The notes under the pieces: model-generated
The model's database searches: none
The model's input: only the letters and a program-made list of their open reading frames with translations
Told to the model about the DNA's origin: nothing
Shown here: one piece after another, positions 34,813-57,208 of the stretch
Layout of the letters: each line of letters starts with the position of its first letter
Numbering within the stretch: the stretch's first letter is position 1
Origin: an uncultured Clostridia bacterium
Lineage (GTDB): Bacteria; Bacillota; Clostridia; Christensenellales; Borkfalkiaceae
Assembly (NCBI GenBank): GCA_947624965.1
Contig: CANQMN010000001.1
Span: 62,001-126,000 of the forward strand
Reading direction: 5' to 3'
Length of the DNA: 64,000 bases
Translations under genes and position numbers: made by a program

Positions 34813-37800
34813 TTAATTTTCGGGAACGGGGTCCCCTTTTGCGCTTTGCAGGATGACCTGACACTCCATCGTAACAAAAGCGCGTACGCGGAAGTTATCG
34901 CCGACCTTCGCCCACTTCAAATTGGGGTCGGGCTTCGACGCATCCGTTTGGAAGGCGTCGCACTTTCCGCCCGCAAACGCCGCGATCTCCTCCCTTCTCC
35001 AATACCAATGGTCCTCGCAATAGGTGGCAAGTTCCAACAGCGTGGCGTTCGACTGCGCCCCGTGATCGTAGATATCTCCCGTCAGAACGATGTGCGTGCG
35101 GAAGTACTTCGCCTCGTACTTGTGCCCGTTCGGCGACGCGTTGGCGTTGACCGCGTACTCTCCGTCCGCCTTGAAATAATAATTGTCGTGGTTGGAATCC
35201 ACGCCGATGCAGGTAAGCGTGTTCTGCGCGGACGTACCGGTAAAGACGGGCGTCCCGCACAGGATGCGCTTTGTGCACTCCTTGCCGCCGACGCCCATCC
35301 CCGCGAAGTCGGAGAGGTATTCGGTAAAGCGTTCGTACGTCTTTTCGGTCTCGGAGGCAGCCATGCGGTTCGCGATCTCCCGCACCTTGTCGAGGCGGAT
35401 GCGGTTGTCCGTCATCTTTTGCGCATACACTCCCTGCCCGAGCGAATCGTCATTCGGGTCGTTCGTGCGCTTCACCAAATAGCCGTAGTCCTGTTTGGCG
35501 GTGTTCCCCTTCTCGTCCCAATCGGTGTAGATGACGACCTGCCGCTCCTCGGCATAGAGGAAGGACTGCGTAACAAAGCTGTAAATCTTCCCGTGGTGAA
35601 GCGCCGCCGACTGCTCCTTCGTTGCCGTGATGCTCTCCTGCGCCTTTGTTTCGTAGAGCGCCTTCTGGCGGTCCAACTCCTTGCTTACTTTTGCCGTCGC
35701 ATTGTCGAGCGTCTGCACGGTTACGCCCGAAGTGAGCCCCGACAACGTCTGCATGAAATACGCCAGCGTACTCGCCCGATTGGAAAGATCGAGCAGGTCG
35801 GCGTTGTAACACGCGATCTGGTCTTTCGCCTCGGGGAAGAAGTTATAGCAGGCGCCCATCATGGTCGTGAAATAGTCGAGCGGACTGTTCCCGCCGTTCC
35901 CCGCGACGGCGTCGCAGTATGCGAGATAGGTGCTCAAATAGCTCTGCGCGCCCGTGTAGTCCACCGCCTCTTTGATGAAGGTCAGCCGCAGTGTATCGTA
36001 ATAGTCGTAGAACGGAACGAGCGTACCGTTCACTTGCATCGCCCTGTCGAGATAGGGATATTGTTCCCTCTCCTTTTCGGTCGGCGAGACGTCCGTCCGC
36101 GTCACGGTAAAGTACTTGTCCGCGAGCTCCTGTTGCAGATCCTTTTCAAAGTCCGCGTACATGGCGCCCTCCATGGCGAGCCGCCCGATGGTTTCGGGAA
36201 GGCCGCCCGGAAGCTGTACCGCCACCGTCTTGCTCCCGTCGATCTCGCCGCCCATGAGCCCGCGGTTCGCGAGCACCCCGTCGAGCGTCGCGGAAAGGAC
36301 GTCGTTCCCCTCCTGATCCTTGATTTTTTCGTACTTGACGGTATGCACGTACGTATCCGCATGGTTGAGAAATCCTTGGATGAAACGGGTATTGTAGGCG
36401 CTCTGGAAGGCTTCGATCTTCGCCTTCATTTCCTTATAGATGCCGTCGCGGAAGGCGTTCCAGTTGGACTGCGCGCTGTTGAACACGATCCGATACTGCT
36501 GTTGTTCGACGTTGTCCAAACGCTCGTCCATGTGGTCGTACAGGGCTTGCATCTGGTTTCCGAGCTCCCGCACCATCGACTGGACCTGCATGACGGAATA
36601 GTAGACGTTTTCGAGCGAAACGCCGCGCGGGAACACGCCGCACATTTCGAGGGTGGTGAGGAGCGCGCTCGCGCCCGAAAAGACGCCTTGCACGGCGCCG
36701 ATGGGACCGCCGCCCTGCGAATCCAAGCTGTTCTTGATGGCGCCCGCGAAATTGTAGAACGACATGAGGAGGTCCTTCACCCTATCGACATAGTACTCGC
36801 CGTCCGGTTCCGTTTGCCATCCCGTAGGTCCGTTCGCGACGGCGCGCACCTCGGACATGTCCTCGTATGCGATCTCCGCGGCAACGGGCTCCCCGTTGAC
36901 CGCGCCGCAGGGGAGCGCGACCGTGCCCGCCGCAAGCGTCGCGGTCGCATGCAGGTTGCGGGAGACGCCCGCGCCTTCGTCCTTCTCCGTCTTCAAGAGG
37001 ACGAGATCGTAGCCGCCGTCCGTGCTCTCCCCGAACTCCTCGATGGTCAAAGCATCGTCCGAAAATGCGATCTTATCCCGCGTGAGACCGAGAAAATCGC
37101 CCTCCGCGGCGAGGTGCATGCGATAGCGGCATTCCCCGGAGACGTCGTCGAAGTTGACCGCCCGAACATAGAGGTCCACCATGGCGGGCGCGGGTGAGAC
37201 GAAGAGGATCTTCTCCTCCCCCGAGCCGAACGCCGCCCCGTCCACGAAGAGCGGCAAGCCGTTGAACCGTTCGATCTCCTCCGCCGTGCCCTCGGTGAGC
37301 GCGATGGCGACGGTCGCCTCGTCCTTCGCCTCGGAGACGGAATCGACGGCGACGGAAAAGTCCGAATCGACGACGGAGACTTCCCCGTCCGCCACTTGGA
37401 ATTTTTTCAACTTCCAATGGGTCGGGTCTGCCGCGCCCGCCGTGAAGGGATCGGCAGAGACAATTTGAAAGGTGAGCCGTTTCCTCGGACCGACTTCTTC
37501 GTAGCGATAGGAATCGGCGTCGATGTACGTAACGGTCATCGCAACGTCTGCCGAAGCGGTGCCCGAAGAGCCCGTTCCGAAGGCGTTTTCCAGCGTTACC
37601 ATGCCTTGGAGCGAGGCGTTTTCCACAATGGTCCCCTCGGTCTCGATCATGAGCACGTCCTCGATGGTCTCGACGGAGAGGACATTGAGTTTTTCAAAGG
37701 AGCCCGCAAGCGTGATGTCCTCCTTGACGATCCCCGCGCGGAAGTCTCCTTCCTGCATCACGACGGTGATCGTGGGGTCTTCGTCCCCCACCGAATACGC

Positions 37801-37944
37801 GCCGCCCACAACGAGCGAAGGCGCGGGCGTTTGGACCGCGTCGACCATGCCGCCGCCGTCGCCGCACCCGACGAATCCGCCAAGCGAGCAGGACGCCATG
37901 AGCGCCGAGAGCAAAAATGCGGCCGCGCGTTTTCCTCTCCGCAT
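34813..37944 (-). CDS. Large lipoprotein of unknown function
   Basis: 1043 residues; I do not recognise a family. The signal peptide carries two possible lipid-anchor cysteines, Cys19 (MASC) and Cys27 (FVGC). Residues 50-350 are beta-rich and contain related segments: EGDFRAGIVKEDI at about 65 and EGDFLGLTRDKI at about 281, suggesting duplicated Ig-like modules. Residues 385-440 are helical with a Gly/Ala-rich hydrophobic stretch (GPIGAVQGVFSGASALL). Residues 448-530 form a long amphipathic coiled coil (MQALYDHMDERLDNVEQQQY); a second helical region near 770-810 follows, then a globular C-terminus with several Cys. Helices around a hydrophobic stretch recall alpha-helical pore formers, but this is only an impression. 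Start has GGAGG 7 nt upstream; own promoter and terminator. Confidence 0.8.
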   Translation of the reverse strand: MRRGKRAAAFLLSALMASCSLGGFVGCGDGGGMVDAVQTPAPSLVVGGAYSVGDEDPTITVVMQEGDFRAGIVKEDITLAGSFEKLNVLSVETIEDVLMIETEGTIVENASLQGMVTLENAFGTGSSGTASADVAMTVTYIDADSYRYEEVGPRKRLTFQIVSADPFTAGAADPTHWKLKKFQVADGEVSVVDSDFSVAVDSVSEAKDEATVAIALTEGTAEEIERFNGLPLFVDGAAFGSGEEKILFVSPAPAMVDLYVRAVNFDDVSGECRYRMHLAAEGDFLGLTRDKIAFSDDALTIEEFGESTDGGYDLVLLKTEKDEGAGVSRNLHATATLAAGTVALPCGAVNGEPVAAEIAYEDMSEVRAVANGPTGWQTEPDGEYYVDRVKDLLMSFYNFAGAIKNSLDSQGGGPIGAVQGVFSGASALLTTLEMCGVFPRGVSLENVYYSVMQVQSMVRELGNQMQALYDHMDERLDNVEQQQYRIVFNSAQSNWNAFRDGIYKEMKAKIEAFQSAYNTRFIQGFLNHADTYVHTVKYEKIKDQEGNDVLSATLDGVLANRGLMGGEIDGSKTVAVQLPGGLPETIGRLAMEGAMYADFEKDLQQELADKYFTVTRTDVSPTEKEREQYPYLDRAMQVNGTLVPFYDYYDTLRLTFIKEAVDYTGAQSYLSTYLAYCDAVAGNGGNSPLDYFTTMMGACYNFFPEAKDQIACYNADLLDLSNRASTLAYFMQTLSGLTSGVTVQTLDNATAKVSKELDRQKALYETKAQESITATKEQSAALHHGKIYSFVTQSFLYAEERQVVIYTDWDEKGNTAKQDYGYLVKRTNDPNDDSLGQGVYAQKMTDNRIRLDKVREIANRMAASETEKTYERFTEYLSDFAGMGVGGKECTKRILCGTPVFTGTSAQNTLTCIGVDSNHDNYYFKADGEYAVNANASPNGHKYEAKYFRTHIVLTGDIYDHGAQSNATLLELATYCEDHWYWRREEIAAFAGGKCDAFQTDASKPDPNLKWAKVGDNFRVRAFVTMECQVILQSAKGDPVPEN

Positions 37945-56321: not shown

Positions 56322-57080
56322 TTAAACCATACTTTCCAAAATCAGCTTGTCGGCGACGAGCGCGATGAATTCGCTGTTCGTGGGCTTTTCCGTGCCGATA
56401 TAGACGCGCGCGCCGAAAATCGCGTTGACGGCGTCGATCCGTCCCCTGTTCCATGCGACCTCGATCGCATGGCGGATGGCGCGCTCCACCTTGCTGGCGG
56501 AGGTCTCGAACCGCTGTCCGATGATGGGATAGAGCCCCTTCGTTACGTTGTTGATGATATGCGGGTCCTCCACCGCCATCTTTATCCCCTCGCGCAGATA
56601 GCTGTACCCCTTGATGTGCGGCGGGATGCCGATGGAGATGAAGATATTGGAGATCCGCTCGTCCAGCGAACCCGCCCGCTTGCGCTCCACCGCTTCCCGC
56701 GCGGGGAGCGGGCTCTCCTCGCCCGCGATCTCGGCGACGCGGTCCGCGACGACCTCCGCCGCGACGGGCTTCATGAGATAATACTTCGCGCCGAGCGAAA
56801 TGGCGCGGTTGATGATCTTGTCGTCCGCAAAATTGCCCATCACGACGAAATCCGCCTTTCTTCCCTCGCGGCGCGCCGTCTCCATCACGGTAAACCCGTC
56901 CAAATTTTTCAAGAACAAACTCAATACAACGATGGCGGGGCTATGCTGTTCGATGAGTTTCACGCCCTCCGCGCCGTCGTCCGTAATGCCGCAGATCGTA
57001 TATCCTTCCTGTGTGGAAAAATGGGAGGCAAGTTCGCGCGCAAACGCTTCGTTGCTCTCCAAAATAATAACCTGCTTCAT
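56322..57080 (-). CDS. spo0A: Spo0A with a degenerate, probably non-phosphorylatable receiver domain
   Basis: 252-residue Spo0A. The C-terminal effector domain (about 135-252) is highly conserved: GIPPHIKGYSYLREGI, then SASKVERAIRHAIEVAWNRG (recognition helix) and KPTNSEFIALVADKL. The receiver keeps its fold but not its chemistry. The acidic pair is Glu8-Ser9 (ILESN instead of xADDN), the phosphoacceptor is Ser54 (VVLSLFLKNLDG, where B. subtilis has Asp56), and the switch Thr is Gly82 (VVMGNF). Only Lys104 (LMKP) remains. The ribosome binding site is weak. It has its own promoter and terminator, and a TGTCGAA 0A-box-like sequence upstream at 57202-57208. Identity is very secure; mode of activation is not. 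Confidence 0.95.
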   Translation of the reverse strand: MKQVIILESNEAFARELASHFSTQEGYTICGITDDGAEGVKLIEQHSPAIVVLSLFLKNLDGFTVMETARREGRKADFVVMGNFADDKIINRAISLGAKYYLMKPVAAEVVADRVAEIAGEESPLPAREAVERKRAGSLDERISNIFISIGIPPHIKGYSYLREGIKMAVEDPHIINNVTKGLYPIIGQRFETSASKVERAIRHAIEVAWNRGRIDAVNAIFGARVYIGTEKPTNSEFIALVADKLILESMV

Positions 57081-57112: not shown

Positions 57113-57141
57113 ATTATAAAACATAAAATTGTAAATGTAAA
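57113..57141 (-). promoter_or_regulatory. Sigma-A promoter of spo0A
   Basis: Minus-strand TTTACA (57136-57141), 17-nt spacer, TATAAT (57113-57118). A second TTTACA overlaps just downstream (57130-57135). The region 57110-57200 is strikingly AT-rich, with several TTTTACAAA-like repeats. Confidence 0.8.
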
Positions 57142-57201
57142 GAGATTTTTGTAAAAAAATCATTGATTATTTTACAAATATAATTGAATTTTGTAAAAAA
57201 T

Positions 57202-57208
57202 TGTCGAA
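57202..57208 (+). promoter_or_regulatory. Putative 0A box upstream of spo0A
   Basis: TTGTCGAAT contains TGTCGAA, the classical Spo0A recognition core. It lies about 60 bp upstream of the spo0A -35 box. A 7-mer occurs by chance, and another copy lies inside a coding sequence at 57306, so this is suggestive only. Confidence 0.45.

Follow-up and report, generated by a model that had tools for sequence, protein, structure and literature searches.

A Spo0A ortholog with a putative pseudo-receiver domain, and absence of the acceptor aspartate from most Spo0A proteins of a family of gut Clostridia

According to two reviews, sporulation in endospore formers begins when Spo0A is phosphorylated (PMC11210211, PMC3533761). 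The locus described here, from an uncultured Clostridia bacterium, raises the question of how a Spo0A without the acceptor aspartate in its receiver domain can be controlled. Within the window (the whole stretch of 64,000 nucleotides that was analysed), the coding part of the locus comprises the following features:

56322..57080, minus strand: spo0A, 252 aa plus stop (TIGR02875, 246.1 bits)
56727..57080, minus strand: putative pseudo-receiver domain, residues 1-118, with E8, S9, S54, G82 and K104 (Response_reg and alignment to 9phz)
56919..56921, minus strand: codon 54, AGT, Ser replacing the acceptor Asp (alignment, letters checked)
56325..56654, minus strand: Spo0A_C DNA-binding effector, about residues 143-252 (PF08769; 1lq1, E 9.2e-38; median dN/dS 0.091)

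The protein matches the NCBIfam profile TIGR02875 over residues 3-250, above the curated cut-off of 200 bits, and the Spo0A_C model over residues 143-246 with 132.3 bits (cut-off 25); the Response_reg match on the receiver (52.5 bits) is weaker than the latter. The effector, which the preliminary description called intact and nearly canonical, shares 53-58% identity with solved Spo0A DNA-binding domains. An AlphaFold2 model calculated with 39 relatives (mean pLDDT 83.9, pTM 0.58) shows a receiver-like fold, whose five strands and five helices succeed one another as in other receivers, followed by a disordered linker and the effector, and its best matches in the PDB are the Spo0A effector structures 1fc3 and 1lq1 and then receivers, including those of Spo0A (1qmp, 5wq0). 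In the alignment to 9phz, the solved receiver of B. subtilis Spo0A, E8-S9 stand at the Asp-Asp pair, S54 at the acceptor Asp and G82 at the switch Thr, while K104 is kept, so that the five catalytic positions of a canonical response regulator read E, S, S, G, K. The substitutions at positions 54 and 82 and the retained Lys are thus as originally described, whereas the reported loss of the acidic pair holds for its second residue only: by alignment S9, S54 and G82 are real losses, and E8 is a conservative change that is still acidic. With Ser at the acceptor site and another two catalytic residues lost, ordinary Asp phosphorylation of this protein is ruled out on sequence grounds.

The preliminary description had named two findings that could undo this picture, a second canonical spo0A and an assembly error in codon 54. 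Spo0A_C matches only once in the source genome (1.79 Mb in 34 contigs, 98.7% complete), hence no second copy was found. Elsewhere in the genus, genomes G092 and G019 each encode an additional Spo0A_C response regulator (L184 and L185) that is divergent and whose receiver looks canonical; it was not found in the window's own genome; further extra Spo0A_C matches in the genus are duplicates or fragments, and G067 has a second strong match. As to an error in the assembly, Ser54 is present in all 30 readable loci of the genus and, within a set of 83 distinct relatives, in 79 (51 with the codon AGC and 28 with AGT), and therefore is not one; the 83 comprise genus loci and named loci at 59-82% identity, a few of which may fall outside the genus. 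The four remaining relatives have Asn (L190, L263, L264) or Asp (L248). The 80 named loci most similar to the window's Spo0A include four of Candidatus Gallimonas from chickens and otherwise mostly Clostridia MAGs.

Analysis of a wider sample reveals that loss of the aspartate extends across the family, which is Borkfalkiaceae in GTDB, and that Ser is one of several replacements, which was beyond the reach of the preliminary description. Spo0A_C matches are present in 87 of 101 genomes of the genus (53 of the 58 better ones) and in 181 of 201 genomes of the family (124 of the 131 better ones), representing 18 of 18 genera. From these we fetched 158 family loci, taking the best effector scores first, so that weak ones are under-sampled, and 152 were readable at the key sites; genera g4 and g15 are missing from the sample, genomes G144 and G156 contribute two loci each, and the excluded loci are truncated or have no readable receiver (L002, L148, L175, L178) or represent the divergent paralogue (L184, L185). 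The acceptor Asp is absent from 119 of the 152 proteins of this family of 18 genera. It is retained in g2 (10/10), g8 (18/25), g17 (3/3), g18 (1/1) and a single member of g3 (1/23). The replacing residue is Ser in the window's genus (g1), Gly, Ser or Asn in g3, Glu or Ser in g5, Glu in g6, Glu or Gly in g7, Asn in the other 7 of 25 proteins of g8, Gly or Ser in g9 and g10, Asn in g11 and g14, Gly in g12, Ser or Ala in g13, and Gly, Ser or Glu in g16. All five canonical residues occur together in just one of the 152 family proteins (from g17), compared to 47 of the 62 proteins counted from the order's other families. These 62 proteins come from 29 families and have Asp (56) or Glu (6) at the site; they remain from 70 loci after exclusion of the truncated L321 and all seven loci of family f24. 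In f24 itself Asp is found at the site in L311-L313 and no recognisable receiver in L314 and L316-L318, and two proteins of family f19 (L304, L305) combine Glu at the site with absence of the acidic pair. A quick Spo0A tree with the key columns masked (124 rows) requires at least seven changes between Asp and not-Asp, two of them concerning other families, although many of its branchings are weak and regain is permitted in the count.

This diversity bears on the idea that Ser54 has become the target of a Ser/Thr kinase, in place of the Asp. The near-uniform Ser54 of the 83 relatives, with both AGC and AGT codons, is what such a phosphosite would predict, but Gly, Asn or Glu takes this position in sister genera, and the codons would also fit a path of drift from Asp through Asn or Gly to Ser. 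Since Ser is only one of several replacements, a general new phosphosite is argued against, and we judge this explanation very unlikely.

In order to characterise the constraint on each domain, we calculated dN/dS for genus-set pairs with overall dS up to 1.0. The median is lowest for the effector (0.091, 550 pairs), followed by the receiver (0.24, 551 pairs) and the linker (0.40, 478 pairs); all three values are rough, since synonymous change approaches saturation (mean pS 0.44-0.57). By these values the receiver is constrained, though less so than the effector. A pseudogene or an erroneous sequence might be suspected from the faster divergence of the receiver, but the frame is open, both domains show purifying selection, many separate genome assemblies share the trait and the box upstream of spo0A is kept; we regard this explanation as scarcely credible. 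The opinion expressed earlier, that simple decay is improbable, agrees with these values, and to the question raised there, whether Ser54 is shared and under purifying selection, the answer is yes. For seven genera without Asp (with one exception in g3) the ratio of receiver to effector divergence is 3.2-5.4; it is 3.6 in g8 and 6.5 in g2, where Asp is mostly or always kept, so that loss of Asp did not free the receiver from constraint.

Within the receiver, the best-kept part in the window's genus is the loop-alpha4-beta5-loop segment: mean entropy of the genus set is 0.74 for residues 83-118 versus 1.29 for residues 2-82, and the corresponding ratio of pairwise differences is 0.57 in the genus, compared to 0.88 in other families and 0.72-1.12 in five further genera of the comparison. 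These values are relevant to a second possibility, a Spo0A gated by a ligand or partner, in which the remodelled pocket or the alpha4-beta5 face would bind a metabolite or protein that switches DNA binding, by analogy with JadR1-type regulators. It is favoured by the better conservation of the C-terminal part of the receiver, by the retention of each of E8, S9, N10, G82, N83 and F84 in 77-81 of the 83 proteins, and by the ligand-bound pseudo-receivers mentioned in a review (PMC12632262). On the other hand, pocket residues vary from genus to genus, and no gene for a ligand or partner was found: the genes flanking spo0A, named by eye as ABC-F, FtsK, RimO, PgsA and CinA, look like housekeeping genes, in a neighbourhood that stays together in some 32 of the 46 long loci. 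As a specific explanation, ligand or partner gating thus appears possible, if rather doubtful. Another residue of potential significance is the one at position K+2, which is Val in the window's receiver. The same review states that Val here pushes the model receiver CheY toward the active form (PMC12632262). In the family it is found in 59 of 119 proteins without Asp and 19 of 33 with it, and since it is no commoner without Asp it is weak evidence for a receiver leaning toward activity.

We also surveyed the signalling proteins of the source genome, following the earlier suggestion to look for a phosphorelay. It encodes five receiver domains including that of Spo0A, and the other four response regulators have canonical residues; three of them adjoin a HATPase_c kinase, and the fourth, of the LytTR type, adjoins an ORF near a contig end. 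Conversely, each of the three HATPase_c sensor kinases lies beside its own response regulator, and the remaining HATPase_c matches are SpoIIAB and, by eye, GyrB/ParE, MutL and HtpG. No single-domain Spo0F-like receiver is present among the five, and no orphan kinase was found in a search made with the HATPase_c model. Phosphotransfer should therefore work elsewhere in the cell, while toward Spo0A there is neither an evident route nor an acceptor. The number of HATPase_c matches per genome, considered as a correlate and judged by eye, does not clearly separate genera that keep Asp from those that lack it. An in-frame stop noted in a kinase at C16 is the gene's own end.

Upstream of spo0A we identified three further features:

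57201..57208, plus strand: candidate Spo0A box TTGTCGAA (TTCGACAA in spo0A sense), about 120 bases upstream of the start codon (word match)
57142..57200, minus strand: TTTTACAAA / TTTGTAAA repeats between box and promoter (sequence reading)
57113..57141, minus strand: putative sigma-A-like promoter, TTTACA (57136-57141), 17 bases, TATAAT (57113-57118) (by eye, letters checked)

The word TTCGACA is the Spo0A box of B. subtilis. Within the window alone it is not rarer than chance allows (5 occurrences versus 2.98 expected), but of 81 distinct genus-set loci 41 have it on the sense strand ahead of spo0A, where first-order random sequences give 1.9 on average and never more than 6; for the family the count is 116 of 197 loci, where such sequences give 4.3 and never more than 12. 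The box-like words TTCGACA and TTGTACA upstream of spo0A are spaced mostly by 10, 21, 31-32, 42, 52-53 and 62 bases, which would place them on one face of the helix, and in the genus the repeats that separate box from promoter resemble degenerate Spo0A boxes recurring about every 10 bp. The succession of a box-word array and a TTTACA/TATAAT promoter is seen at window 57113-57208 and at the same place in relatives. In the genus, a box is also found upstream of spoIIE in 8 of 10 genomes (0.69 expected and at most 5) and a tandem box in 7 of 10 (0.04 expected and at most 2), in regions that were picked from the match listing and not at random; the source genome's copy reads TTCGACAAACAAAGACG ahead of TATAAT. 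Sense-strand TTCGACA is absent from 10 of 10 spoIIE regions in ten genomes of other genera, with and without Asp, so that the spoIIE box was rejected as a family trait, and no exact box was seen upstream of the source genome's own spoIIG and spoIIA. Taken together, the boxes at spo0A and, in the genus only, at spoIIE suggest that the regulator still has targets.

Several broader interpretations of these motifs were considered and abandoned. The spo0A promoter pattern is no novelty of the Asp-less genera, as TTCGACA is found in 10 of 10 loci of g2 and in 25 of 66 of other families; the box thus also precedes Asp-bearing spo0A and did not arise with the loss of Asp. The repeat GTACAAA is commoner in the family than outside it (g1 47/81, g8 11/23, g3 1/23, g2 0/10, other families 8/66) and is not tied to Asp loss. 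A genome-wide search for tandem boxes returned six sites (2 for the reversed pattern), one at spoIIE, four inside long ORFs and one of unclear status, so that we do not claim a regulon.

We consider that there is about an even chance that the protein is a Spo0A ortholog in which the receiver has turned into a pseudo-receiver and which works without Asp phosphorylation, its activity being set by amount, ligand or partner. In such a protein the receiver would be held in, or easily adopt, a conformation that permits the effector to bind to tandem Spo0A boxes without phosphorylation, and as binding would need no phosphate, activity would follow the amount of Spo0A. The control point might then be the autoregulated spo0A promoter, or a ligand or partner acting on the conserved alpha4-beta5 face, and the targets in the window's genus would still include spo0A itself and spoIIE, hence the start of the sporulation programme. 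The pseudo-receiver review gives both routes and terms the mechanisms a mystery (PMC12632262). For most members of the family, it can be said that Spo0A is probably controlled in some way other than phosphorylation of the Asp.

Whether this programme still leads to spores is a separate question, and the preliminary description had proposed both a search for its components and, as an alternative, roles for Spo0A outside sporulation. In the source genome we found matches to SigE (359 bits), SigG (369), SigF (279), SigK (287), a SigH-like factor (150), SpoIIAB (184) and, weakly, SpoIIGA (88), those to SigF, SigG, SigH-like, SpoIIGA and SpoIIE being below NCBIfam cut-offs. As SpoIIE and SpoIVA are present too, the genome combines the sigma cascade, SpoIIE and SpoIVA by which we recognise an endospore former. 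In the family, SpoIIE is found in 194 of 201 genomes, never over the NCBIfam cut-off, and SpoIVA in 180 of 201, with weak matches (E above 1e-20) in 14, of which 13 belong to g10, a genus that may have lost or replaced SpoIVA. In contrast, alpha/beta SASPs were detected at E 0.001 in none of the 201 family genomes, including the window's own (G000), in a search that covered these genomes and B. subtilis, which was positive; true spores are therefore unproven. One review states that SASP genes are easily lost and that several clostridia have only two (PMC3533761).

The proposal of other roles is thus favoured by the missing SASPs and opposed by the sigma cascade, SpoIIE and SpoIVA. In its full form it describes a developmental remnant: spores would no longer be made, and Spo0A and the cascade would be kept for stationary-phase or cell-division roles that no longer need phosphorylation. 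Besides the SASPs, the weak SpoIVA matches in 14 of 180 matching genomes speak for it; yet former spore-formers, according to another study, usually lack most stage II-IV genes (PMC8340488), and here SpoIVA and SpoIIE are widespread and the sporulation sigma factors are at hand in the source genome. We consider a remnant unlikely; the spores of these bacteria may be of an unusual kind, or the programme may stop after its early part. Returning to the pseudo-receiver reading and extending it to the whole group, we tentatively envisage a family of gut Clostridia with a spore-like programme that dispenses with alpha/beta SASPs, in which Spo0A would mostly never be phosphorylated on Asp and commitment would be set by dosage on a box array or through a ligand bound in the remodelled receiver; in this family, Asp would have been lost several times, with change to Glu or loss of the receiver occurring again in other families of the order.

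We compared the protein with three kinds of known system. It resembles canonical Spo0A (TIGR02875; 1qmp, 5wq0, 1fc3, 1lq1) in domain order, receiver fold, effector and, in the genus, the tandem spoIIE box, and differs from it in the replaced acceptor Asp, second acidic residue and switch Thr. As two articles describe them (PMC4395418, PMC12632262), aspartate-less receivers, pseudo-receivers and atypical response regulators likewise combine a receiver fold devoid of phosphorylation chemistry with DNA-binding regulation, and the window's spo0A shares with atypical response regulators the lack of a neighbouring kinase gene. Unlike the known pseudo-receivers, this one belongs to a sporulation master regulator, extends to most of a bacterial family and shows several residues at the acceptor site. 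With the clostridial Spo0A proteins that orphan kinases phosphorylate directly (PMC11210211, PMC3533761), it has in common that no phosphorelay gene is seen beside spo0A; it differs from them in that no HATPase_c kinase lacking an adjacent regulator was found in the window's genome and in that the acceptor is gone. Aspartate-less receivers are already known, and in Spo0A we found none reported: a literature search by title and abstract opening, which left subscription papers and preprints largely outside, and which also covered sporulation in this group, gave among the entries listed no report that we recognised as a natural Asp-less Spo0A, and in the passages of PMC4395418 the sole mention of Spo0A is a remark about mutants with Asp changed to Glu.

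Retention of the regulator and of most of the programme by a family that has given up the phosphorylation chemistry would show that the input is replaceable, and its receivers with Asp, Asn, Glu, Gly or Ser form a natural series for testing the change from receiver to pseudo-receiver. A study of sporulation potential that includes the window's family uses the presence of spo0A as the first criterion (PMC11536998). From the presence of spo0A alone one cannot conclude that these gut bacteria sporulate, nor by what control. Apart from the spo0A locus, the window encodes on the minus strand (34819-37944) a protein of 1042 aa, without NCBIfam match at E 1e-5, which has a lipoprotein-like start.
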